Source of the DNA: Paracoccaceae bacterium
GTDB taxonomy: Bacteria; Pseudomonadota; Alphaproteobacteria; Rhodobacterales; Rhodobacteraceae
Assembly (NCBI GenBank): GCA_021775315.1
Contig: JAJFIC010000055.1
Span: 1-54,934, forward strand
Reading direction: 5' to 3'
DNA: 54,934 bases
Position numbers and translations under genes: made by a program
Shown here: positions 6,384 through 50,504 of the stretch, piece after piece
How the letters are laid out: the number at the start of each line of letters is the position of its first letter
Numbering within the stretch: the stretch's first letter is position 1
The notes under the pieces: generated by a model
The model's database searches: none
Told to the model about the DNA's origin: nothing
What the model saw: only the letters and a program-made list of their open reading frames with translations

Positions 6384-7442
6384 TTAAACTGTTTTGGTGA
6401 TCGTGGCCGGGGCCGGTTCAATTTCAGGCGCGGCGGACGCATCGGAACCTGAACGGTCATTGGACACAACATCCGATTTTTTTGCAGCCAGGTTGGCTGC
6501 AACGCTGGCGTGGATGTATTCCGATTTGTCCGCCAGCGTGATGCGTTTTTTGCGATAAAGGAAAAACTTGGCCGAACCTCGCGTTGATCCATGGGCCAGT
6601 GCCGAGGGGTCCGTTGGGAAATCCTGTCGCCAATTGTCAGGCAAAGGCAGACCGCAGGCCTCGGCATGGTCCAGCATCCAGACAAGTGGAATGTTTGACA
6701 GCGCGCGGGCCTGTTGGAACGCGCCTAAATGACCACCAACATCCGCATGGCCGCCGCGAAACCAGGCCTGTTCCAACCGACCAGACCAGTCTCCGCGCGA
6801 CTTCCACAGAACCGGGGCAAAAGCCGTGCGGTTTTCATCCATCGCCAGCGCCTGAAACCCGTTGCGCGTGGCGTTACCCAGCGCATGATTGTGAAAATCA
6901 GTTGGCCGGGGCGCCAGCCGCCACAACAGCGGATACTGAATACCAAGCGCTTTGACCGTGTCCCAGACACCGACCATTTCGATGCGTACATCTTTGCAGC
7001 AAAACGCCTTGGTGAATTGCGCAGCCGAATTTGTAATTTGGTCCTTCCGGTAGTACCGAAAAGCCTGCCGGACATTGCTTTCGGTGGCATGCTGACGCCT
7101 AAGCAGGCCGATCTGGTCGATAATGCCAGCCAGCGACCGAACGGCATAGGCGCCTCGGGAAAAGCCGAACAGAAAGATGCGGTCGCCCGGTCGGTATCGC
7201 GCGGCAATGAAACCATAAGCCCGTCGGATTTGGCGTGTCAGGCCGCGCCCGGCGACGACATCAAGCATGCTGCGCCATGTGCACCATTGAATGCCTTCCT
7301 CGTACCTCAGCGACATGTGGTTCGAGGGCTGCATGCTGCACAGCAATCGAAAGGTCAGACCTGCATTGCTTTCGCGCGCGGGGCTGAGCGAACTGAGGGT
7401 GCCGTCGATGATGACGACATGGGTGATAGGCGGGCGGGTCAT
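6384..7442 (-). CDS. DUF2235 alpha/beta-hydrolase-like protein
   Basis: DUF2235 proteins have an alpha/beta-hydrolase core; some members are type VI secretion phospholipases of the Tle1 class, but most are uncharacterised. The 352-residue product begins with HVVIIDGTLSSL (the family's start strand and DGT motif) and carries the nucleophile elbow GFSRGA with Ser95. A later VGVWDTVKALG and HALGNATRNGFQALAMDENR follow the family pattern. There is no signal peptide and no neighbouring secretion gene, so an intracellular lipase or esterase role is more likely than an effector. It is read in the same direction as cobQ, 68 bp upstream of it. The last 40 residues are low complexity. Confidence 0.75.
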   Translation of the reverse strand: MTRPPITHVVIIDGTLSSLSPARESNAGLTFRLLCSMQPSNHMSLRYEEGIQWCTWRSMLDVVAGRGLTRQIRRAYGFIAARYRPGDRIFLFGFSRGAYAVRSLAGIIDQIGLLRRQHATESNVRQAFRYYRKDQITNSAAQFTKAFCCKDVRIEMVGVWDTVKALGIQYPLLWRLAPRPTDFHNHALGNATRNGFQALAMDENRTAFAPVLWKSRGDWSGRLEQAWFRGGHADVGGHLGAFQQARALSNIPLVWMLDHAEACGLPLPDNWRQDFPTDPSALAHGSTRGSAKFFLYRKKRITLADKSEYIHASVAANLAAKKSDVVSNDRSGSDASAAPEIEPAPATITKTV

Positions 7443-7597: not shown

Positions 7598-8332
7598 ATG
7601 GAAACGCTTGCAGGATTTGAGAGATACGATTTTCAAGGGCCATTGGCAGACGGTAATTCCGTCAGTCACCCGGTTTATTTCATAGGGCAGGGGCCGCCGA
7701 TTGTGATCTGGCAGGAATTGCCGGGAATTGGTCCAGAAACCATTGAGCTGGCGATCAAAATTTCCGACGCCGGGTACAAGGTTTATCTGCCGCATTTGTT
7801 TGGCCCTTTGGGTCGGATGAGCTTTGTCGGCAATATCGCCCGTCTGTTTTGCATGCGGCGCGAGTTTCATTTGTTTGCCGCCAACAAGGCCAGCCCAATT
7901 GCCAATTGGATGGCAGCACTTTGCCGGGATGTGCGGGCGCGCAATGATGGCGCGCAGGTGGGTACGCTTGGCATGTGCCTGACCGGCGGTTTTGCTTTGA
8001 CGCTGATGGCTGATGATGCGGTGATCGGCGGGGTCGCCAGCCAGCCGTCGCTGCCCATAATGAAACAAACTGCCCTGCACATGAGTGCGCGGGAAATCAG
8101 TGACGCAAAAGCGGGCATGCAGGCCAAAGGCCCCGCCCTTGCGATGCGATATTCCGGCGACCCTTTGTGCAAGGCCGCCAAGCTTGACACGATCAAGGAC
8201 ACGTTTGGCGACGGTGTTGTCACGCATACGGTTCCCGGCAAAGGCCACGCGATGCTGACTGCCCATTGGAGCGATGAGGCTTTTGAAAAAACCATCGGCT
8301 ATTTTAACGACCGCTTTGCCAGCAAGCTCTGA
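7598..8332 (+). CDS. Dienelactone-hydrolase family protein
   Basis: The product is 244 residues with an alpha/beta-hydrolase fold of the dienelactone hydrolase type, which uses a Cys-Asp-His triad. The nucleophile is Cys127 in GTLGMCLTGG, the His is probably His217 in GKGHAML, and Asp188 in YSGDPLC is a likely acid. A perfect AGGAGG ribosome site precedes the ATG at 7598. The substrate is unknown; no aromatic-ring catabolic genes are near. It lies 109 bp upstream of the PhyH/HD pair on the same strand and might share transcription with it, which is inference. The gene is divergent from the DUF2235 gene across 155 bp. Confidence 0.8.
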   Translation: METLAGFERYDFQGPLADGNSVSHPVYFIGQGPPIVIWQELPGIGPETIELAIKISDAGYKVYLPHLFGPLGRMSFVGNIARLFCMRREFHLFAANKASPIANWMAALCRDVRARNDGAQVGTLGMCLTGGFALTLMADDAVIGGVASQPSLPIMKQTALHMSAREISDAKAGMQAKGPALAMRYSGDPLCKAAKLDTIKDTFGDGVVTHTVPGKGHAMLTAHWSDEAFEKTIGYFNDRFASKL

Positions 8333-8441
8333 CGCCTCAGTTCAAGGTCAAATTACGGCGTAAACGGCGTCGTATTTATGGCAGACCGTGTTAGATTCGG
8401 TATCCCATTCTGGTTGACGAAAAACCGGTTGGGAGGAAATA

Positions 8442-9326
8442 ATGCTGGCACCAATTCCCATGGAGAATGGTCATTTGTCGGCTTCATTGGTCGCGCAATA
8501 TTGGCAGGATGGGTATCTTTTCCCGCTTGAAATCACGCCACCGGATCAGGCGCAGGAATGGCGGCAGGCCTTTGAAGACATGGAACGCGACTGGCTGGCG
8601 TCAGATTTGCCGTTGCCGCTCAATTCCTACAAACGTTTGAACGCGCAATGTGTGATGCCGCTGGCGTGGGAAATTGGTTCAAACAAGGCGGTGCTTGACG
8701 TTGTTGAAGGCGTGCTCGGCCCGGATATTTTGCTTTATGCAGTTGAGTTTTTTGTCAAAGAACCCGGAACAACACATACCGTCAGCATGCATCAGGATCT
8801 GACATATTGGGGCATGGGCGCGATTGACGGGTTGTTGACCGCATGGATTGCGCTTAGCCCGGCAACGCCGCAATCAGGGTGCATGGATTTTGTCCGGGCC
8901 AGCCACAAAAACGCGATTTTACCGCATAGTGATACGTTTGACGCAAACAACCTTTTGTCACGTGGTCAGGAAGTCAGCGTCGAGGTTGCAGACAAAGACA
9001 AAGTTGCGATCGAAATTCACCCCGGACAGATGAGCCTGCATCACGGTCTGACCATCCACGGCTCTGGGCCAAACACATCAGACGATCGCCGGATCGCGGC
9101 GGTCGTGCGGTATTTGACACCAGAGGTCGCGCAAGAGCATGGTAATAAGGACTACGCTATTCCAGTGCGTGGGCAGGATACCGGCGGCAATTTCAGGCAC
9201 TATCAGCCAGCGCAGGATTGGTTCACAACGCAGGGCTTGTCGATGCATGACGAAATCAGGGCGCATCAGGCGCAGGTAACTATGGCCGGGGCACGGAAAA
9301 AATCAATGTATGAAGGGGCAAAGTGA
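8442..9326 (+). CDS. Phytanoyl-CoA dioxygenase (PhyH) family Fe(II)/2-oxoglutarate oxygenase, PhnY/TmpA-like candidate
   Basis: The 294-residue product is a 2-oxoglutarate-dependent hydroxylase. The iron triad is visible as His117 and Asp119 in SMHQDL and His206 in TIHGSGPN, with Arg216 or Arg217 positioned to bind 2-oxoglutarate. Length fits the PhyH family (about 250-300). Its stop codon overlaps the start of an HD-domain gene by one base (TGATG), so the two are translationally coupled. A PhyH hydroxylase coupled to an HD-domain oxygenase is the arrangement of PhnY-PhnZ and TmpA-TmpB, which hydroxylate and then cleave aminoethylphosphonates. The substrate here is unknown. GGGAGG precedes the start. 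Confidence 0.85.
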   Translation: MLAPIPMENGHLSASLVAQYWQDGYLFPLEITPPDQAQEWRQAFEDMERDWLASDLPLPLNSYKRLNAQCVMPLAWEIGSNKAVLDVVEGVLGPDILLYAVEFFVKEPGTTHTVSMHQDLTYWGMGAIDGLLTAWIALSPATPQSGCMDFVRASHKNAILPHSDTFDANNLLSRGQEVSVEVADKDKVAIEIHPGQMSLHHGLTIHGSGPNTSDDRRIAAVVRYLTPEVAQEHGNKDYAIPVRGQDTGGNFRHYQPAQDWFTTQGLSMHDEIRAHQAQVTMAGARKKSMYEGAK

Positions 9327-9943
9327 TGGAACAAGTCAAATTTACGCAGATGAAAGACGGCGACAAGGAAGACTACGATTTCCTGACAAAGCACGAGATT
9401 GACTATACCAAAGGCACCGCAGATCGCCTGCTAAAGGCGCTGGTCGAGCTTGATGACAGCATGTCAGGCTATCAGATCACCCGCCTTGGCCATTCTGTGC
9501 AATCGGCTACGCGAGCTTGGCGGGATGGGGCGGATATCGATTGGGTGGTCTCGGCCCTGCTGCACGATATTGGCGATATATATGCGCCTTACAATCACGA
9601 CGAATACGCGGCGACGATTCTGCGCCCGTTCGTGCGCGAACAATGCAGTTGGTGCGTTGAGACCCACGGTGATTTTCAGATGTTGTTCTATGGCGAACAT
9701 CTTGAGGGCGGCAATCCCCACAAACGCGACCGCCACAAGGGCCACATGTATTTCGACGATTGCGCCGCGTTTTGCGAACGCTGGGATCAAAGCAGTTTTG
9801 ACCCTGACTATGACACCCTGCCGATCTCGTTTTTTTCCCCGATGGTGCATGAGGTTTTTGCCCGCACACCATATGATCCGGACGTTATTCAGGCCGGAAA
9901 GCGGCAGCCGTTGCAAGATGCCGAAATCGCCGCCACGCGGTAA
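9326..9943 (+). CDS. HD-domain protein, PhnZ/TmpB-like mixed-valence diiron oxygenase candidate
   Basis: Counting from ATG 9326 (a GTG at 9323 would add one residue), the 205-residue product carries His56 (LGHS), His80-Asp81 (LLHDIGD), His91 (NHDEYA), His114 (VETHGD) and Asp154 (ERWDQS). This order, and the 24-residue gap from the first His to the HD pair, match what I recall of PhnZ, whose diiron site cleaves the C-P bond of a hydroxylated phosphonate. The RWD context of the last Asp also resembles PhnZ. Ordinary HD phosphohydrolases usually lack the extra His ligands. The protein is coupled to a PhyH hydroxylase. The PhnZ-type reaction is inferred, and a different substrate is quite possible. 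Confidence 0.7.
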   Translation: MEQVKFTQMKDGDKEDYDFLTKHEIDYTKGTADRLLKALVELDDSMSGYQITRLGHSVQSATRAWRDGADIDWVVSALLHDIGDIYAPYNHDEYAATILRPFVREQCSWCVETHGDFQMLFYGEHLEGGNPHKRDRHKGHMYFDDCAAFCERWDQSSFDPDYDTLPISFFSPMVHEVFARTPYDPDVIQAGKRQPLQDAEIAATR

Positions 9944-10015
9944 GCCCCTTTCCCTTGCCGCGTGCATTCGCTAGATGATCCTGCAAACCGCAGATTTGAT
10001 ATGGGGTCATCCCGA

Positions 10016-13009
10016 ATGCCGATGGAAAAGAATTTTGACGCTGCCGCCGCTGAGGCCGCGATTTACGCCAATTGGGAAAGCTCTGGCGCTTTCAAGGCTG
10101 GTGCAAACGCCAAACCGGGGGCTGAGACTTTCAGCATCATGATCCCGCCACCGAATGTGACGGGCGCTTTGCATGTGGGGCATGCGTTCAACAACACGTT
10201 GCAGGATATTCTGATCCGCTGGCACCGGATGCAGGGGCACGACACCCTGTGGCAGCCCGGGCAGGATCACGCGGGCATTGCCACGCAGTTGCAGGTCGAA
10301 AAGATGCTGGCGGCCAATCAGGAACCTTCAAGGGCTGAAATGGGGCGCGAGGCGTTCACGGCTAAGGTTTGGGAATGGAAAGAGCAATACGGCTCAACCA
10401 TCATCAACCAGCTCAAACGCCTTGGTGCGAGCTGCGATTGGGACCGCAATGCGTTCACGATGTCCGGCGCGCCCGGCGCGCCAAAATCCGATGAGGGGCA
10501 GTTCCATGATGCCGTCCTGAAAGTTTTTGTCGATCTTTACAACAAAGGTCTGATCTATCGCGGCAAACGCCTCGTAAACTGGGACCCGCATTTTGAAACC
10601 GCGATTTCCGATCTTGAGGTCGAGAATATCGAAGTTGACGGCCATATGTGGCACTTCAAGTACCCGCTGGCGGGTGGGGCGACTTATGAATATGTCGAAA
10701 AGGACGCGGACGGCAATGTAACCCTGCGCGAAACCCGCGACTACATTTCCATCGCCACGACGCGGCCTGAAACCATGCTGGGTGATGGCGCGGTTGCGGT
10801 GCATCCTGATGATGAACGCTATGCGCCTATCGTTGGCAAGCTGTGTGAAATTCCTGTGGGGCCGAAAGAACACCGCCGGATGATCCCGATCATTACGGAT
10901 GACTATCCCGACATGGATTTTGGATCAGGTGCGGTGAAAATCACCGGTGCGCATGACGCGAATGATTACGGCGTGGCCGAACGTGGAAATATCCCAAAGT
11001 ACCGCCTGATGGATACCCGCGCCAATATGCGCGACGACGGCGCGCCTTACAGCGAAACCGCAGCACGGGCGCGGGCGATTTCCGAAGGGGCAGACTGGGA
11101 CGGGGCCGAGGTTGATACGCTTAATCTGGTGCCGGACGTTTATCGCGGCATGGACCGGTTTGAGGCGCGTAAAGCGGTGATTGCGGATATTGATGCCGAG
11201 GGTCTGATGATCGTCGTTGAAGATAAAAAGATCATGCAGCCGTTTTGCGACCGCTCCAAAGTCGTGATGGAACCGATGCTGACCGATCAATGGTACGTGG
11301 ACGCGGCCAAGCTGGCAGGGCCTGCGCTTGAGGCGGTCAGGGATGGCCGGGTCGAGATTATGCCGGAAAGCGGCAAGAAGGTCTATTTCCACTGGATGGA
11401 GAATATTGAGCCTTGGTGTATCTCGCGGCAGCTTTGGTGGGGGCATCAGATTCCGGTTTGGTATGGGCCGTCCAAAGAAAATTACAAAGATTCTATTTCC
11501 TTCTGCGCGCCGAGCTTCGCTGAGGTCACGAAACAGGCAGAAATCTATTACGGTTTTGGAATGGAAATTCACGAAGGTGGTGAAAAGCCGAATCTTGAAA
11601 AAAAGCTACAGGAAAAGGGCCTTCTCAGAAGCTTTAACGGATGGGGTTATAGGCGAACGGGAGATGAAGAAAACTCTGTCGATGCGGTTTTCCTCCAACG
11701 CGACCCTGACGTCCTAGACACATGGTTCTCCTCCGGTCTCTGGCCGATCGGCACGCTCGGCTGGCCGAATTGGGGCGAGGACACCAAGAAATACTTCCCG
11801 ACTTCCACCCTTGTCACCGGCCAGGACATCCTGTTCTTCTGGGTCGCCCGCATGATGATGATGCAGCTTGAAGTGGTTGATGACATCCCTTTTGATACCG
11901 TCTATCTGCACCAACTGGTGCGAGATGAGGCGGGCGTGAAAATGTCCAAAACGCTGGGCAATGTCATTGATCCGTTAGAGATGATTGACGAATACGGCGC
12001 CGATGCAGTGCGGTTCACCATGACCTCGATGGCGGCGCTTGGTGGCAGCCTGAAACTGTCGATGGAGCGGGTCAAAGGCTATCGTAACTTCGGCACTAAG
12101 CTCTGGAATGCCGCGCGGTTTGCCGAGATGAACGAATGCAAACCGAGTGCGGATTTTGACCCCACGAAGGTCAACCAGACCGTCAATAAATGGATCATCG
12201 GCGAAACCGCCCGCACGCTGGCAACCGTTGACACAGCCCTAAAACAATACCGTTTCAACGACGCGGCAGGCGCGCTTTATGCCCATGTCTGGGGCAAGGT
12301 TTGCGACTGGTATGTCGAACTGGCCAAACCGCTGTTTCAAGGCGAAGACGCCGCAGCCAAGGCGGAAACGCAGGCAACAATGGCTTGGGCGATCGACCAA
12401 TGCCTGATCCTGCTGCATCCGATCATGCCCTACATCACCGAACAGTTATGGGGTGACATTGCCCCACGCGACAGCCAGTTGGTTCACGCCGATTGGCCGA
12501 CTTACACGCAGGCTGATTACGTGGATGGGGTGGCCGACCGGGAAATGAACTGGGTCATTGCGCTTATTGAACAGGTGCGTTCGGTGCGGACCGAGCTTCG
12601 GGTCAATGCCGGTGCCAAAATCCCGATGATCCAGCTTGATCTTGATGCCGCCGCGCAAAAGGCCCTTGATGGCAACCTTGGTATGATAAAACGACTGGCG
12701 CGCATCGAACAGGTTCTGACTGCAACGGACGCGCCAAAAGATGCGATCACCTTAGCGGTCGAAGGCGGTACGTTCTGTTTGCCCTTGGCCGATATTATTG
12801 ACGTGGCAGCGGAAAAAGCGCGGCTTGAAAAGGCGCTTGAAAAGCTTGGAAAAGAGGCGGGCGGTTTGAAAGGTAAACTTAACAACGAAAAGTTTCTGGC
12901 CAACGCCCCGGCTGAAGTGGTGGAAACCCAGCGGGTAAGGCTGGCCGCGATTGACGAAGAAACCGAAACCCTGAACGCCGCCTTTGAGCGGATTAACGCG
13001 CTGGGCTAA
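10016..13009 (+). CDS. valS: Valyl-tRNA synthetase
   Basis: ValRS charges tRNA-Val and edits mischarged threonine. The 997-residue product (start MPMEKNF at 10016; an upstream GTG frame lacks support) has the HVGH signature at residues 53-56, the editing domain, the KMSKT loop near residue 641, an anticodon-binding domain and a C-terminal coiled coil (EKARLEKALEKLGKEAGGLK). Bases 11472-11698, between WYGP and RDPDVLDTWFSSG, encode an unusually long, A/T-rich stretch with codons AGA, AGG and CTA that are rare around it. The frame stays open, so the enzyme is probably active. In many alphaproteobacteria valS directly follows popZ; here five genes lie between. Confidence 0.96.
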   Translation: MPMEKNFDAAAAEAAIYANWESSGAFKAGANAKPGAETFSIMIPPPNVTGALHVGHAFNNTLQDILIRWHRMQGHDTLWQPGQDHAGIATQLQVEKMLAANQEPSRAEMGREAFTAKVWEWKEQYGSTIINQLKRLGASCDWDRNAFTMSGAPGAPKSDEGQFHDAVLKVFVDLYNKGLIYRGKRLVNWDPHFETAISDLEVENIEVDGHMWHFKYPLAGGATYEYVEKDADGNVTLRETRDYISIATTRPETMLGDGAVAVHPDDERYAPIVGKLCEIPVGPKEHRRMIPIITDDYPDMDFGSGAVKITGAHDANDYGVAERGNIPKYRLMDTRANMRDDGAPYSETAARARAISEGADWDGAEVDTLNLVPDVYRGMDRFEARKAVIADIDAEGLMIVVEDKKIMQPFCDRSKVVMEPMLTDQWYVDAAKLAGPALEAVRDGRVEIMPESGKKVYFHWMENIEPWCISRQLWWGHQIPVWYGPSKENYKDSISFCAPSFAEVTKQAEIYYGFGMEIHEGGEKPNLEKKLQEKGLLRSFNGWGYRRTGDEENSVDAVFLQRDPDVLDTWFSSGLWPIGTLGWPNWGEDTKKYFPTSTLVTGQDILFFWVARMMMMQLEVVDDIPFDTVYLHQLVRDEAGVKMSKTLGNVIDPLEMIDEYGADAVRFTMTSMAALGGSLKLSMERVKGYRNFGTKLWNAARFAEMNECKPSADFDPTKVNQTVNKWIIGETARTLATVDTALKQYRFNDAAGALYAHVWGKVCDWYVELAKPLFQGEDAAAKAETQATMAWAIDQCLILLHPIMPYITEQLWGDIAPRDSQLVHADWPTYTQADYVDGVADREMNWVIALIEQVRSVRTELRVNAGAKIPMIQLDLDAAAQKALDGNLGMIKRLARIEQVLTATDAPKDAITLAVEGGTFCLPLADIIDVAAEKARLEKALEKLGKEAGGLKGKLNNEKFLANAPAEVVETQRVRLAAIDEETETLNAAFERINALG

Positions 13010-13567: not shown

Positions 13568-13725
13568 AATATCTTGGCTCCTAAAAGACCGGAGAAACCA
13601 AAAGCGTAGCTGTTGAGCGGTGATTTGTCCAAGCCTGTATTTGCCCTGCGCCTGTTCAGTGAATTGTTTGTGTTTTCCATTTTGCGGACTTGCTGACCGT
13701 ACCAAATAACCTATATTCGAGCGCT

Positions 13726-14832
13726 ATGACCAGACCCAGATACACCCCGCTTGTCGCCTCGCTGCCTGCAACCGTGCCCTTTGTCGGGCCCGAAACGCAG
13801 GAACGCGCCCTTGGCAAGCCATTCGCCGCGCGGCTTGGCGCGAACGAAAACGTGTTTGGGCCGTCCCCGCGTGCGGTGGCTGCGATGAAAAAGGCCGTGG
13901 CCGGGGTCTGGCAATATGGTGACCCGGAAAACTTTGACCTTAAGGCCGCGTTGGCGTCGCATCATCGCGTGCCCGCAGAAAACATCGTGGTGGGTGAAGG
14001 TATCGACGCTTTGCTGGGGTATTTGTGCCGCATGGTTTTGGAACCGGGTGACAAGGTTGTGACATCCGCAGGCGCCTATCCGACTTTCAATTTTCATGTG
14101 GCGGGGTTCGGCGGCGAGCTGATCACCGTGCCTTATAAAGGCGATCACGAAGACCCGGTTGCGTTGATCGAAAAGGCAACCGAATGTGGGGCCAAGCTGA
14201 TCTATCTGGCCAACCCGGACAACCCGATGGGAACGCGCCACCCGGCAAATGTTATCGCCGCCGTGATCGCTGCTGTGCCTGATGGGGCATTGCTGGTGCT
14301 GGACGAGGCCTATCTTGAATTTGCCCCGGAAGATACGGCACCCGCCCTTGACCCCGACGACGACAAAGTCATCCGCTTTCGCACCTTTTCAAAGGCCTAC
14401 GGCATGGCGGGTGCGCGGGTTGGCTATGGTGTCGGTGCGGCTGGCTTGATCGACAGTTTCAACAAGATCCGCAACCATTTTGGCATGTGCCGGATTTCTC
14501 AGGCAGGCGCGCTAGAAGCCCTTGCCGACCAGCGCTACCTGACCCAAACCATCCAGAACGTCAGCGATGCACGCGACAGGATCGGCGTGATCGCGGCTGA
14601 AAACGGGCTGGTCGCGCTGCCGTCGGCCACCAATTTCGTGGCTGTCGATTGCGGCTCTGACGGGGCCTTTGCCAAGCGGGTTTTGGACGCGTTGGTTGCC
14701 CGGGGCATATTTGTGCGCATGCCTTTTGTTGAACCGCAAAACCGCTGTATCCGGTTGTCTGCGGGGACCGAGGCTGATCTTGATCTGTTTGCGGCTGCAT
14801 TGCCCGACGCACTGGCGGAGGCCCGTGGATGA
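13726..14832 (+). CDS. PLP-dependent class I/II aminotransferase, histidinol-phosphate-aminotransferase-like
   Basis: The 368-residue product (start MTRPRYTPLV) has the HisC-type fold. It shows LGANENVFGPSP near residue 38, Asn166 in NPDNPMG, Asp193 and Tyr196 in LDEAYLEF, and the cofactor lysine Lys223 in TFSKAYGMAGARVGY. Its last bases overlap the start of puuE (ATGA-type), so it is the first gene of the ureide operon. No other histidine genes are near, so a role in histidine synthesis is doubtful. An amino-group transfer connected with ureidoglycine or glyoxylate is possible, though known ureidoglycine-glyoxylate aminotransferases belong to class V. Substrate is open. Confidence 0.8.
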   Translation: MTRPRYTPLVASLPATVPFVGPETQERALGKPFAARLGANENVFGPSPRAVAAMKKAVAGVWQYGDPENFDLKAALASHHRVPAENIVVGEGIDALLGYLCRMVLEPGDKVVTSAGAYPTFNFHVAGFGGELITVPYKGDHEDPVALIEKATECGAKLIYLANPDNPMGTRHPANVIAAVIAAVPDGALLVLDEAYLEFAPEDTAPALDPDDDKVIRFRTFSKAYGMAGARVGYGVGAAGLIDSFNKIRNHFGMCRISQAGALEALADQRYLTQTIQNVSDARDRIGVIAAENGLVALPSATNFVAVDCGSDGAFAKRVLDALVARGIFVRMPFVEPQNRCIRLSAGTEADLDLFAAALPDALAEARG

Positions 14833-15731
14833 GCGACTATCCCCGTGACATGATCGGCTATGGTGCCAAACCTGCCAAAGCGAACTGGCCCGATAGCGCC
14901 CGGATCGCGCTCAATTTTGTGATCAATTACGAAGAAGGCGGCGAAAATAATATCCTGCACGGCGACGCCGCGTCCGAGGCATTCCTGTCAGAAATCGTCG
15001 GTGCCGAGCAATGGCTGGGCCAGCGTCACATGAACATGGAATCGATCTATGAATTCGGCTCGCGGGTCGGGTTCTGGCGTTTGCACACCATGTTCACCAC
15101 GCGCGACATGCCGGTCACGGTTTTTGGCGTGGCCACCGCGCTTGAAAAAAACCCCGACGTCGTGGCTGCAATGAACGCTGCCGATTGGGAAATCGCCAGC
15201 CACGGTCTGAAATGGATCGATTATCGCAACGTCCCTGAAAAGGTCGAGCGTGACCACATCGCAAAGGCGATCCAAATACATACCGAAGTGATGGGTAAAC
15301 CCCCGGCGGGGATGTATCAGGGCCGCAGCTCGGAAAACTCGATACCGCTGACGATGCAGGCAGGTTTTGAATATTCCGCCGACAGCTATGCCGACGAACT
15401 GCCCTATTATGTTGACGGGCCAGACGGGCCGTTTCTGATGGTGCCCTATACACTAGACGTCAACGACATGCGCTTTGCTTCGCCTCAGGGGTTTAACTCC
15501 GGCGATCAGTTTTTTGCGTACCTCAAAGACAGCTTTGACGTGCTTTACGCCGAAGGCGGGCGCATGATGTCCGTGGGCCTGCATTGTCGGCTTGTCGGGC
15601 GGCCGGGCCGCGCGGCGGCGCTGATGCGGTTTCTGGACTATGTGCAAAGCCACAAGGATGTGTGGGTCACAAGACGCATTGATATCGCCCGCCATTGGCG
15701 TGCTGAACATCCGGCTGCAAAAGGGGAATGA
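14829..15731 (+). CDS. puuE: Allantoinase PuuE (polysaccharide-deacetylase fold)
   Basis: PuuE hydrolyses allantoin to allantoate and is unrelated to the amidohydrolase AllB. The 300-residue product shows the family's features: YPRDMIGYGAKP at the start, LNFVINYEEGGENN (metal-site strand), YEFGSRVGFWRL, WEIASHGLKWIDY and VGLHCRLVGRPGR. These are the signatures of the PuuE branch of the deacetylase fold. Length is normal. It overlaps the aminotransferase upstream and is separated by one base from allE. The order puuE-allE-allA covers most steps from allantoin to glyoxylate and urea; an allantoate amidohydrolase must be encoded elsewhere. Confidence 0.92.
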   Translation: MSDYPRDMIGYGAKPAKANWPDSARIALNFVINYEEGGENNILHGDAASEAFLSEIVGAEQWLGQRHMNMESIYEFGSRVGFWRLHTMFTTRDMPVTVFGVATALEKNPDVVAAMNAADWEIASHGLKWIDYRNVPEKVERDHIAKAIQIHTEVMGKPPAGMYQGRSSENSIPLTMQAGFEYSADSYADELPYYVDGPDGPFLMVPYTLDVNDMRFASPQGFNSGDQFFAYLKDSFDVLYAEGGRMMSVGLHCRLVGRPGRAAALMRFLDYVQSHKDVWVTRRIDIARHWRAEHPAAKGE

Positions 15732-15732
15732 C

Positions 15733-16560
15733 ATGACCGCAAGGCACTATTTCACGCCCACAGGTGGCCTGCCTTCGCAAAGCGATCTGATGACGGGGCG
15801 TGCGGTGTTCACTGATGCGTACGCGGTCATTCCCAAAGGCGTGATGCGCGATATCGTCACCAGCGCTTTGCCGCATTGGCAAGGCGCGCGCGCTTGGATT
15901 TTGGCCCGGCCCCTAAGTGGATTCGCCGAAACATTTGCACAATACATAGTCGAGCTGGCCCCCGGCGGCGGTTCAGACCGTCCAGAACCGGATACCGAGG
16001 CCGAGGCGGTGTTGTTCGTCGTCGCCGGTGAAATGCAACTGACGCTAGCGGGTAAGGTCCATGTTCTGACGCCGGGCGGCTATGCTTACATTCCCGCAGG
16101 CGCCTCTTGGCAGGTCAGGAATACCGGAAGCGCGCCCGCTAGTTTCCATTGGATTCGCAAGGCTTATGAACCGGTAGATGGGCTGCAAGCCCCTACGGCT
16201 TTCGTGACGTCCGATCAAGCACATGAACCTTTGGCGATGCCCGACACAGATGGGCGCTGGGCCACCACGCGCTTTGTCGAACCGGATGATCTTAGCCATG
16301 ACATGCATGTCAATATCGTCACGTTTCAGCCCGGCGGGGTGATCCCGTTTGAAGAAACCCATGTGATGGAACACGGGCTTTACGTGCTGGAAGGCAAGGC
16401 GGTCTACAAGCTCAACCAAGATTGGGTCGAGGTCGAAGCGGGCGATTTCATGTGGCTGCGCGCCTTTTGCCCGCAAGCCTGTTACGCCGCCGGTCCGGGG
16501 CCGTTTCGTTACCTGCTATATAAAGACGTGAACCGCCATCCGGCGCTGAGGCTCAAGTGA
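15733..16560 (+). CDS. allE: (S)-ureidoglycine aminohydrolase (bicupin)
   Basis: This enzyme (YlbA/AllE/UGlyAH) converts (S)-ureidoglycine, made from allantoate, to (S)-ureidoglycolate with release of ammonia, using Mn(II). The 275-residue product has two cupin halves: LFVVAGEMQLTLAGKVHVL with GGYAYIPAGASW in the first, and PFEETHVMEHGLYVLEGKAVY with VEAGDFMWLRAFCPQACYA in the second, where the metal ligands Glu/His reside. Start ATG 15733 is one base after the puuE stop. Its last bases overlap the GTG start of allA, so the operon is translationally coupled. Confidence 0.92.
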   Translation: MTARHYFTPTGGLPSQSDLMTGRAVFTDAYAVIPKGVMRDIVTSALPHWQGARAWILARPLSGFAETFAQYIVELAPGGGSDRPEPDTEAEAVLFVVAGEMQLTLAGKVHVLTPGGYAYIPAGASWQVRNTGSAPASFHWIRKAYEPVDGLQAPTAFVTSDQAHEPLAMPDTDGRWATTRFVEPDDLSHDMHVNIVTFQPGGVIPFEETHVMEHGLYVLEGKAVYKLNQDWVEVEAGDFMWLRAFCPQACYAAGPGPFRYLLYKDVNRHPALRLK

Positions 16561-17039
16561 TCCTCAGACCCGAACCGTTGACGCCGGCGGCATTTGCACC
16601 ATTTGGCGATGTGATTGCGTGCGACCCAACCAAAGCGTTTGACATCAATGATGGATTTACCACGCGCCATCACGCGCTGGCCACCGTTGAAACCGACGTG
16701 CTGGCGATCCTGTCGATCTTTCAGGGTCGCGTCCGCCCGCTGAGCGTTGCCATGCTTGAATGCCACCCCAAGGGGTCACAAGCCTTCATGCCGCTGGATG
16801 GTCAGGACTGGCTGGTTGTGGTGGCCGGGCAACCCGTTTCGTCGGCGTGTCGCTTGTTTCGCTGTCGTGGCGATCAGGGCGTCAATTATCGCGCGGGCGT
16901 CTGGCATCATCCTTTGTTGGTGATTGATCGGGCGCAAAGCTTTTTGGTGGTGGATCGCCAAGGCGAGGGCGCAAATCTGGACGAAGTGTTCTTTGACGCG
17001 CCGCTTGAAATAGATCTGACGCAATCCGGAGCCGATTAG
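16557..17039 (+). CDS. allA: Ureidoglycolate lyase
   Basis: AllA splits ureidoglycolate into glyoxylate and urea, the last step of this route. The 160-residue product begins with GTG at 16557 (overlapping the allE TGA) and reads MILRPEPLTPAAFAPFGDVI, typical of the family, followed by ECHPKGSQAFMPLDGQDWLVVVA and YRAGVWHHPLLVI. Length is normal for AllA (about 160). It ends the operon; a hairpin-containing repeat follows. Urease or glyoxylate-using genes are not in the window. Confidence 0.92.
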   Translation: MILRPEPLTPAAFAPFGDVIACDPTKAFDINDGFTTRHHALATVETDVLAILSIFQGRVRPLSVAMLECHPKGSQAFMPLDGQDWLVVVAGQPVSSACRLFRCRGDQGVNYRAGVWHHPLLVIDRAQSFLVVDRQGEGANLDEVFFDAPLEIDLTQSGAD

Positions 17040-48884: not shown

Positions 48885-50504
48885 ATGGGCAGGCCTTCGG
48901 CAGGGATATTATTCGGTTTTCTGGTGGCGGTGCTGGTGGTTCAGGCCGGGCTTTTGCTTGGAAAAGGCGTGTTGCTGATCGACCAGCACGAAGGTGACGC
49001 GCTGCATTTGATGCAGATTTCGCTGCGGATGGGGCAGGGACAGTGGCCGCATCTGGATTTCATGACCCCAATTGGTGTTTTGGCTTTTGCGCCGGTTTCC
49101 TGGCTTATTTCGCTTGGCGTTGGGGCTGGTAAAGCGATGATGGGCAGTATGCTGATGGTTGCCCTTTTGATGTTGTCCGCGATCTGGTGGGTCGGGTTTT
49201 CACGGTTGTCTTCGGGGTTGGCTTTTGCCTTTGGCGGGTTTTTGATTTTACTGATCACTGCGTTGGTTTATGGCGGTGACGCGCAGGTGGCCTCGATCTC
49301 GATGTATTATAACCGCTGGGCTTGGGCGGTTGTGTTCATGCTGGTGACACTGGTTGTTTTACCTGCCGGTCGCGAGTCCGAGGTTGCTGACGGCTTGGTT
49401 TTTGGCTTTGGCATGGCTTTTCTGGCGCTGTGCAAAATTACCTTTTTCGCGGCCTTCCTGCCGGGTATTTTGTTGGGTCTGATAATACGCAAACAATGGA
49501 CGGCGTTGGGTGTTGGTCTGGCAATTGGCTTGCTGGTCGCGGGTGCGATGACGTTGTTTGGCGGGCCTGAATTCTGGGTCGCTTACATTGGCGATTTGCG
49601 CGCTGTCAGCGGGTCGGGCATTCGCCCTCAGCCCGGTGAAAGCCTGTCTTATCTTTTGATTTCGCCAGTGTTTCTGGCCGGAAACCTGTGCCTGCTGGCC
49701 GGGATTGTTCTGCTCAGGCAGGGCGGTCAGGCGGTTGAGGGGATGCTGTTGCTGGTTTTCGCGCCTGCTTTTATCTATGCCACTTATCAAAATTGGGGAA
49801 ATGACCCTAAATGGCTGATTATACTTGGGTTTATCCTGCTGTCTTTACGACCCGATCGCCACCTGAATAATGCGTTTGGTTGGGATGTGGGCCGCTCTTT
49901 GGGCATCGTTAGTCTGGTTTCCTTTGCTCTGATCCTGCCGACAATTTACACGATCAGCCTTGCGAATGTCCGCCACGCGCGACTGGATCGGGCCGATTTC
50001 TTTCAGGTCTTTCCGGGTGCGAATAATGATGATGTGTTCATGCGCGTGGATCGGATGTACGCAACCGTACGACGCGCGCCGTTTTCTGTGGATAACGCCA
50101 ACATCAGACAGACGGCCGAGGCAGCGATTGCCTTGCCCGAGGATACGCTGTTTGGTCAACCGCTTGGCCTTTGCAAGCTGCATATGGGGCTGGTCGGCAT
50201 GCTGCAACAGATGGCGACTGATCTGGAGGAAATGGATGGGTTGAGCGGCAAATCCGTGTTTGTTGCCGACACGTTTTCAAACCTATGGTTGTTTGGAAAA
50301 ACCACCCCCGTACCAAAGGCCGCGCCGTGGTATTATGGGGTGCAACCGGCCTATAAGAACGCTGATTTTCTGCTGGTGCCGCTATGTCCGGCGACCCCTG
50401 CTGCGCGATCACAAATTCTGGCAGGATTGCCGCTGTCAGGTGTGAATTTTCAAGAGGTCATGCGCAACGAATTGTTCATTTTGTTGCGAGTTTTACCTGA
50501 TTAG
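48885..50504 (+). CDS. Polytopic membrane protein of unknown function
   Basis: The 539-residue product has about ten to eleven hydrophobic segments in residues 1-370 and a periplasmic C-terminal domain of about 170 residues. A loop after the first helix has IDQHEGDALHLMQISLRMGQ and FMTPIGVLAFAP, the kind of acidic loop found in GT-C-type membrane glycosyltransferases. The C-terminal part has two cysteines (LCKLHMGLV, VPLCPATP). It is inserted in opposite orientation between the AAA+ ATPase and cpaA. Sugar transfer to pilin or envelope is a guess from topology. Confidence 0.65.
   Translation: MGRPSAGILFGFLVAVLVVQAGLLLGKGVLLIDQHEGDALHLMQISLRMGQGQWPHLDFMTPIGVLAFAPVSWLISLGVGAGKAMMGSMLMVALLMLSAIWWVGFSRLSSGLAFAFGGFLILLITALVYGGDAQVASISMYYNRWAWAVVFMLVTLVVLPAGRESEVADGLVFGFGMAFLALCKITFFAAFLPGILLGLIIRKQWTALGVGLAIGLLVAGAMTLFGGPEFWVAYIGDLRAVSGSGIRPQPGESLSYLLISPVFLAGNLCLLAGIVLLRQGGQAVEGMLLLVFAPAFIYATYQNWGNDPKWLIILGFILLSLRPDRHLNNAFGWDVGRSLGIVSLVSFALILPTIYTISLANVRHARLDRADFFQVFPGANNDDVFMRVDRMYATVRRAPFSVDNANIRQTAEAAIALPEDTLFGQPLGLCKLHMGLVGMLQQMATDLEEMDGLSGKSVFVADTFSNLWLFGKTTPVPKAAPWYYGVQPAYKNADFLLVPLCPATPAARSQILAGLPLSGVNFQEVMRNELFILLRVLPD

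Follow-up and report, generated by a model that had tools for sequence, protein, structure and literature searches.

Which compound is oxidised by the products of two overlapping genes in a Paracoccaceae bacterium (Rhodobacterales; contig JAJFIC010000055.1 of assembly GCA_021775315.1)? The stretch of DNA analysed (positions 1 to 54,934 of the contig, 54,934 nucleotides, hereafter the window) carries on its forward strand a gene for a PhyH-family Fe(II)/2-oxoglutarate (2OG) hydroxylase of 294 amino acids (8442..9326), the predicted first enzyme, followed by a gene for an HD-domain protein of 205 amino acids (9326..9943, ATG at 9326), a predicted mixed-valent diiron oxygenase and second enzyme. 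A preliminary description of the pair, made from the sequence, had proposed a new member of the PhnY/PhnZ phosphonate-oxidation type. In the comparisons reported here, a logic of hydroxylase followed by HD oxygenase is probable, and we lean slightly, if at all, towards a quaternary amine as the substrate. Overall, a two-enzyme oxidative cleavage module acting on a trimethylammonium compound is our main explanation, to which we give about an even chance.

Ligands and fold of the HD protein

Candidate metal ligands of the HD protein (numbered from the ATG at 9326; all codons of both proteins on the forward strand) were compared in an alignment of the window protein with 77 of 90 listed sequences, from which the other 13 had been removed by hand with no fixed criterion. 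The first diiron ligand His56 (9491..9493), the HD pair His80-Asp81 (9563..9568), the third and fourth His ligands His91 (9596..9598) and His114 (9665..9667), and the last ligand Asp154 (9785..9787, within ERWDQ) were all unchanged in 78/78 rows of this alignment, as well as in 20/20 rows of another that reached down to 33% identity. These residues, the RWD context of the last ligand and the spacing of 24 residues between the first His and the HD pair were as read in the preliminary description, and so was the shorter gap from the HD pair to the third His, which is 11 residues here against 22 in TmpB (hand count) and, by the figure in the description, 22 in PhnZ. An invariant Arg53 lies three residues N-terminal of His56, and four aromatic residues (Phe117, Phe149, Phe158 and Phe170) are invariant too. 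The arrangement H...HD...H...H...D is the one given for PhnZ-type enzymes in the accessible part of a 2020 review (PMC8177086). The two extra invariant ligands, His91 and His114, argue against a plain mononuclear hydrolase.

Profile and fold searches led to the same enzymes. Searched against the PDB, a profile of the 78-row alignment matched PhnZ (E = 1.1e-10) and TmpB (4.7e-8), followed by Cas10 (0.005) and a lipase (0.5). With the AlphaFold2 model of the protein (mean predicted local distance difference test score, pLDDT, 95.7), all 10 chains found by Foldseek at E <= 1e-3 were PhnZ or TmpB (TM-scores 0.57-0.71; next match at 0.055), and MIOX was absent from the best 50 of 146 fold matches. 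The best Pfam match was HD (PF01966, a domain model that is not hydrolase-specific), with 21.5 bits against a cut-off of 22 (23 bits in a six-frame search); Pfam MIOX (PF05153) reached 20.8 bits, below its cut-off of 25. From the ligands and from the profile and fold matches we infer that the protein is an HD-type oxygenase.

The PhyH protein

The product of the upstream gene matched Pfam PhyH (PF05721) with 87 bits (cut-off 22). In an alignment of the window protein with 31 of 32 PhyH sequences (that of locus L106, with 38% identity, was omitted), the iron facial triad His117-x-Asp119 (8790..8798) and His206 (9057..9059), already noted as complete in the window protein, was complete in 31/32 rows (His117 32/32, Asp119 31/32, His206 32/32). 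Arg217 (codon 9090-9092), which we take to be the expected 2OG-binding Arg, was present in 32/32 rows. An Asp in this triad, instead of Gly or Ala, points to hydroxylation, and its presence here therefore argues for a hydroxylase. The closest solved fold to the AlphaFold2 model (pLDDT 90.6) was ThoJ (E = 1.2e-24; TM-score 0.81 on the query and 0.92 on the target; 27% identity), with the halogenase SyrB2 second. The ThoJ homologue TsaJ is described, in the accessible text of PMC8153245, as beta-hydroxylating histidine only once bis-N-methylation makes the charge permanently positive; by analogy, the likeness to ThoJ/TsaJ hints that a methylated cationic substrate may suit this PhyH branch.

Pairing and distribution of the two genes

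In the window the two genes overlap by one base, in keeping with the preliminary description: the coordinates of the open reading frames (ORFs) give a junction string of TGATG. An alternative GTG start of the HD gene, three bases before the ATG at 9326, would yield a four-base overlap. The pairing was surveyed across the window's family, in 248 genomes from 247 genera. A close PhyH (E <= 4.4e-66, a cut-off chosen after the hit list had been inspected) was present in 41/248 genomes, and 40 of these 41 also had an HD match, compared with 46/207 of the others (Fisher p 6.6e-21). In 34 of the 41, PhyH was directly upstream of HD on the same strand, with a match-to-match gap of -1 to 71 bases. The HD protein was only 54-59% identical to the window's in 13 of the 34 linked genomes, so that the pairing covers a deeper clade as well as the close one. 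Among the seven exceptions, PhyH and HD were separated by another gene, read as an amidase, in locus L182 (genome G103), and PhyH directly preceded a valS-like gene in L183 (G076), where HD was only distant and elsewhere; four genomes had both genes apart, and G172 had no HD match. PhyH adjoined HD in 15 of 80 named loci, with the exact one-base overlap in 11 of these 15 (start codons from a simple gene caller of our own). The PhyH-HD pairing is real.

The HD family extends well beyond the pairs. It was matched in 86/248 genomes (80 of them close), compared with 25/198 for TmpB above cut-off; the 80 core genomes are the 86 minus five with only a distant match (38-41% identity) and one with a weak match. 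At least 580 encoding stretches were found in one species-level collection, including roseobacters, Mesorhizobium and SAR11, and the nearest named relatives among the matches listed were mostly from Rhodobacteraceae and Roseobacteraceae. This is a widespread HD oxygenase branch of which no characterised member turned up in the searches made here. The HD gene was interrupted by stops or split in L016, L018/L023/L025, L019 and L032, perhaps because some lineages can dispense with it, or else through assembly errors. Loci with a broken, truncated or out-of-frame HD gene (L032, L042, L044, L045, L103 and L118) were left out of the neighbour table and the tree, and were kept in the tblastn comparison of loci.

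Carnitine and quaternary-amine genes beside HD relatives

A total of 103 loci (L026-L128, including the 80 named ones) were compared by tblastn. In 18 of them (17 among the named 80), an HD relative 67-75% identical to the window's lies between BKACE and carnitine 3-dehydrogenase, and the operon then continues, by the same tblastn comparison, with genes for an acyl-CoA dehydrogenase, a nucleoside diphosphate (NDP)-forming acyl-CoA ligase and a crotonobetainyl-CoA-hydratase-like protein. Examples of the operon from L036 and L087 were checked by profiles: the carnitine 3-dehydrogenase of L036 passed its equivalog cut-off (770 versus 592 bits), and the hydratase-like gene stayed under its own (315 versus 500 bits). 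Because few lineages contribute these 18 loci (mostly Mesorhizobium, with some Rhodobacteraceae), they do not represent 18 independent events. In the tree of HD proteins (with TmpB as the only outgroup, 5 of 12 fetched sequences), those of the carnitine operons made up 19/22 rows of a group of their own, placed beside a 35-row group that contained the window and 15 other PhyH-linked HD proteins; this placement had moderate support (SH-like approximate likelihood ratio test, SH-aLRT, 88 and 85).

In some loci the gene beside HD encodes another kind of hydroxylase. The gene before HD in L027 (a Pseudomonas plasmid) and L098 (Oceanospirillaceae) encodes a TauD-type hydroxylase, which matched TmpA (347 bits), gamma-butyrobetaine dioxygenase (266 bits) and trimethyllysine dioxygenase (171-177 bits), in each case under the cut-off and far above chance. 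As these neighbours show, the hydroxylase partner of HD can be exchanged between PhyH and TauD. L027 additionally has genes for a choline-binding protein (over cut-off) and a choline dehydrogenase after HD, and the genes after HD in L073 read, from their N-termini, like those of a TMADH-like flavoprotein and an MttB-type methyltransferase. A FA_hydroxylase (sterol desaturase) gene adjoins HD in L026 (8001-10483), L043 (7006-8603) and L067 (10001-11662), upstream of it in L043 and downstream in L026 and L067 (by Pfam in L067 and by tblastn in the others), and is possibly a third kind of hydroxylase partner.

In SAR11, TmpA-like TauD genes were present elsewhere in the genome in 7/8 genomes (six at 331-344 bits and one at 273; cut-off 400). 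In one of them (G305, contig C8, 12706-15646), the TauD match (273 bits) is preceded, 0.9 kb away and on the same strand, by a match resembling carnitine dehydrogenase (283 bits). The SAR11 HD gene itself directly follows a purF-like gene in 12/12 loci (including L100 and L107; our own reading), and is followed in 10/12 by a glutamate-cysteine-ligase-like gene and then mostly by a glutathione-synthetase-like gene and an EamA transporter gene (EamA by Pfam, in L107).

Proposed reaction

The carnitine operons, choline genes and TauD partners found with HD relatives point to quaternary amines. In the reaction that we propose, the PhyH protein, with Fe(II), 2OG and O2, would hydroxylate a trimethylammonium (quaternary amine) compound at one of its carbons. 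The Fe(II)/Fe(III) site of the HD protein (His56, His80, Asp81, His91, His114 and Asp154) would then abstract the hydrogen at the carbinol carbon and insert O2, converting the carbinol to a carboxylate while the neighbouring bond, a C-C rather than a C-P (carbon-phosphorus) bond, is broken. In the accessible part of PMC8177086, a superoxo diiron species that takes a substrate hydrogen, followed by oxidative bond cleavage, is described for PhnZ, TmpB and MIOX. The cleavage product would enter the catabolism of gamma-butyrobetaine, carnitine or glycine betaine.

The instance that we favour starts from trimethyllysine, and on chemical analogy it is possible but rather doubtful. In it, N6-trimethyllysine would be beta-hydroxylated by PhyH (or TauD) to 3-hydroxy-trimethyllysine, which the HD oxygenase would cleave between C2 and C3: 3-hydroxy-trimethyllysine + O2 -> gamma-butyrobetaine + 2-hydroxyglycine (-> glyoxylate + NH3), an equation balanced by hand. 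Gamma-butyrobetaine would be the entry compound of the ligase, dehydrogenase, hydratase, carnitine dehydrogenase and BKACE series that houses the HD relatives, if the roles that we assigned to these operon genes by family knowledge hold. Such a conversion would bypass the aldolase and the aldehyde dehydrogenase of the known route. Both enzymes are stated to be needed in that route in the accessible part of PMC8085414, where L-carnitine biosynthesis is said to be unobserved in prokaryotes. Among the open-licence literature matches listed, no paper linked carnitine, trimethyllysine or quaternary amines to an HD oxygenase.

Several observations weigh against a trimethylammonium module. Some concern the carnitine link. 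The carnitine 3-dehydrogenase of the window genome (697 bits) counts in favour of the link, but the carnitine operon there is on another contig and has no HD gene, and within the window's family HD stood beside carnitine 3-dehydrogenase only in genomes G017 and G019 among the matches listed. None of the eight SAR11 genomes passed the cut-off for this dehydrogenase (best 283 of 592 bits, in G305). Carnitine 3-dehydrogenase was found in 81/86 HD genomes compared with 95/162 others (z 4.8 with a genome-size term). The 26 TmpB genomes (25 over cut-off and one at 299/300 bits, among 198 searched) showed a similar excess (25/26 versus 151/222 others, the latter including 50 not searched for TmpB), and the co-occurrence is therefore not specific; for this reason, operon linkage was preferred as evidence. 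The acyl-CoA ligase of the operon, present in 68/80 core HD genomes and 76/168 others, is likewise not specific evidence. Distant HD relatives have varied neighbours.

Other observations against it concern the hydroxylase. A close PhyH was missing from 41/80 core HD genomes. Of 26 genomes chosen for an HD gene not linked to PhyH, one had a close PhyH (60% identity), which was unlinked, and the next best matches were at 35-38%; TmpA was over cut-off in nine of these 26, so that real phosphonate genes are not far. In four genomes with a carnitine-operon HD (G281 and G293-G295), both a close PhyH and a TmpA-like TauD were lacking, which means that the HD substrate must be reachable in them without either hydroxylase. 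One HD-adjacent PhyH (L151, 587-1498) has Asn in place of Asp119, and the unlinked PhyH copies of L179-L181 lie amid sugar-metabolism-like genes (N-terminus reading). The trimethyllysine step, finally, is a guess by chemical analogy.

Two alternatives were considered. The HD oxygenase could have as its substrate a hydroxylated metabolite with no relation to quaternary amines, and perhaps a housekeeping or repair role, with PhyH merely broadening the substrate supply and the carnitine linkage being a side branch. That HD occurs alone in many genomes, that the 12 SAR11 loci offer no catabolic context around the purF-like gene, and that neighbours vary among distant members would fit such a role. 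Separate tree branches repeatedly show carnitine operons, TauD partners and choline genes, which speaks for quaternary amines instead, and we regard the unrelated metabolite as a minor, though serious, possibility. Alternatively, carnitine itself or a similar beta-hydroxy betaine could be the compound that the HD protein cleaves, by the hand-balanced equation carnitine + O2 -> glycine betaine + glycolate, with PhyH or TauD acting as a gamma-butyrobetaine-type hydroxylase. The position of HD between BKACE and carnitine 3-dehydrogenase in the 18 loci and the resemblance of the TauD partners to gamma-butyrobetaine dioxygenase agree with this reaction, as do HD genes without PhyH, since no dedicated hydroxylase would be needed. 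The dehydrogenase and BKACE of the operon, with roles again assigned by family knowledge, however already turn L-carnitine into betaine, and another route would be superfluous except for D-carnitine or a homologue. We consider carnitine cleavage unlikely; its equation and that of trimethyllysine cleavage both balance with one O2, and sequence does not separate the two.

Relation to phosphonate enzymes

The only NCBIfam matches of the HD protein were three models of phosphonate HD oxygenases, all far under cut-off: 29.2 versus 214.6 bits (TIGR03276), 25 versus 300 (PhnZ1) and 24.1 versus 300 (TmpB). A YxxE loop serves substrate entry in PhnZ and TmpB according to the accessible part of PMC8177086. 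It is missing from the family: the window protein has Met46 and Tyr49, and the 78 rows have Tyr (74) or Phe (4) at position 49, with Glu in none, and Leu at position 46 in 68 of them. Three residues beyond the HD pair, Asp84 (9575..9577) is Asp in 78/78 rows, where PhnZ alignments and 5/5 TmpB sequences have a His that we take to be a phosphonate contact. The TmpB strings HVAAKRY and LQGGPM had no counterpart in the HD family alignment, and the distance from the His of HVAAKRY to the Asp of RYLD, both taken as ligands, was 57 residues in one TmpB compared with 40 here (hand count). Furthermore, 17 genomes hold both the HD gene and TmpB, so that neither substitutes for the other. Membership of the HD protein among the phosphonate enzymes was rejected on these scores, motifs and coexistence.

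A true phosphonate pair, in which an alkyl- or aminoalkylphosphonate hydroxylated by PhyH would undergo C-P cleavage by the HD protein, is consequently hard to sustain. PhnZ and TmpB are the nearest folds of the HD model and phosphonate HD oxygenases its sole, if weak, NCBIfam matches; PhyH weakly matches methylphosphonate hydroxylase (22 versus 500 bits), and TmpA-like TauD partners exist. Set against these are the curated scores far under cut-off, the absent YxxE and TmpB strings, the constant Asp84, the 17 genomes with both HD and TmpB, and the lack of any phosphonate gene in a Pfam scan of 18 other ORFs of the window, eight of which were also scanned by NCBIfam. We regard the phosphonate pair as very unlikely. 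The doubt that the preliminary description itself expressed about a phosphonate substrate was thus justified. What stands of its proposal is the hydroxylase/HD-oxygenase type (ligands, PhnZ/TmpB folds, pairing), and what does not is phosphonate oxidation (scores, motifs, coexistence with TmpB, carnitine-gene neighbours): it was right in the type of mechanism and probably wrong in the class of substrate. An ordinary metal-dependent HD phosphohydrolase beside PhyH by chance, to which the top Pfam match to HD and the label phosphohydrolase on a relative in one plasmid record would point, is very unlikely given that two extra His ligands are invariant, that the MIOX score nearly equals that of HD, that the fold search gave no phosphohydrolase at E <= 1e-3 and that the pairing with a hydroxylase is too frequent for chance; profile and fold comparisons, with the ligands, were the grounds on which it was set aside.

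Comparison with known systems

The window pair resembles PhnY/PhnZ (2-aminoethylphosphonate, with methylphosphonate variants) in joining a 2OG hydroxylase to an HD oxygenase and in having PhnZ as its nearest fold, and differs from it in the missing YxxE, the Asp for His three residues after the HD pair and the scores far under cut-off. With TmpA/TmpB (2-trimethylaminoethylphosphonate) it has the HD fold in common, and some HD relatives pair with a TmpA-like TauD; trimethylammonium chemistry is likely a common theme of the HD family and TmpA/TmpB. The partner in the window is, however, PhyH and not TauD, the TmpB motifs are absent, and TmpB is a separate gene in the 17 genomes that hold both. 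MIOX, an HD oxygenase that cleaves C-C bonds and is likewise without YxxE (PMC8177086, accessible part), gave a weak Pfam match, but by score (20.8 versus 25 bits) the window HD protein is not a member of its family. The thioamitide histidine beta-hydroxylases ThoJ and TsaJ, of which ThoJ has the solved structure closest to the PhyH protein, differ in serving peptide biosynthesis, and we know of no HD partner for them. The bacterial carnitine operon has the same kind of genes as those around HD relatives in the 18 loci. Carnitine dehydrogenase operons with a divergent AraC-family regulator have been described (PMC5806209), and an HD gene is unmentioned in the accessible part of that paper; in the window genome, the HD gene is separated from this operon. 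For Ruegeria pomeroyi, a proteomic study of cells grown on carnitine is available (PMC12478193).

HD-domain oxygenases named in the accessible part of the 2020 review were MIOX, PhnZ and TmpB (PMC8177086), to which methylphosphonate and fungal PhoF variants of PhnY/PhnZ were added in that of a 2023 review (PMC10574752). C-C cleavage of trimethylammonium compounds would widen the chemistry of the mixed-valent diiron cofactor and supply a missing step in the turnover of nitrogen osmolytes, and in roseobacters, rhizobia and SAR11 a trimethyllysine route would lead into the pathways of carnitine and glycine betaine. Tallying the HD family as phosphonate genes would, in that case, mislead marine phosphorus surveys. 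To our knowledge, the HD protein would also be the first PhnZ-branch HD oxygenase to break a C-C bond.

Genomic surroundings of the pair

A valine-tRNA ligase gene lies directly downstream of the pair in the window. On the upstream side, a dienelactone-hydrolase-like gene is accompanied on the opposite strand by a Tle1-like lipase-domain gene and cobQ; none of the immediate neighbours hints at the substrate. A scan of 8200-10100 for promoters and terminators was uninformative (one promoter-like site with 1.3 expected, and one terminator-like site with 2.6 expected), as were repeats. A 539-amino-acid ORF (48885-50504, forward strand) had zero Pfam matches at E 1e-5. A purine catabolism run on the forward strand (13690-17039) comprises genes for a HisC-like aminotransferase, the allantoinase PuuE, an (S)-ureidoglycine aminohydrolase and an ureidoglycolate lyase. 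The Tle1-like gene (6384-7442, reverse strand; 211 bits) encodes a catalytic domain of the type of type VI secretion system phospholipase effectors, and genes resembling it, as read from N-termini, were located near PhyH in L067 and L183.

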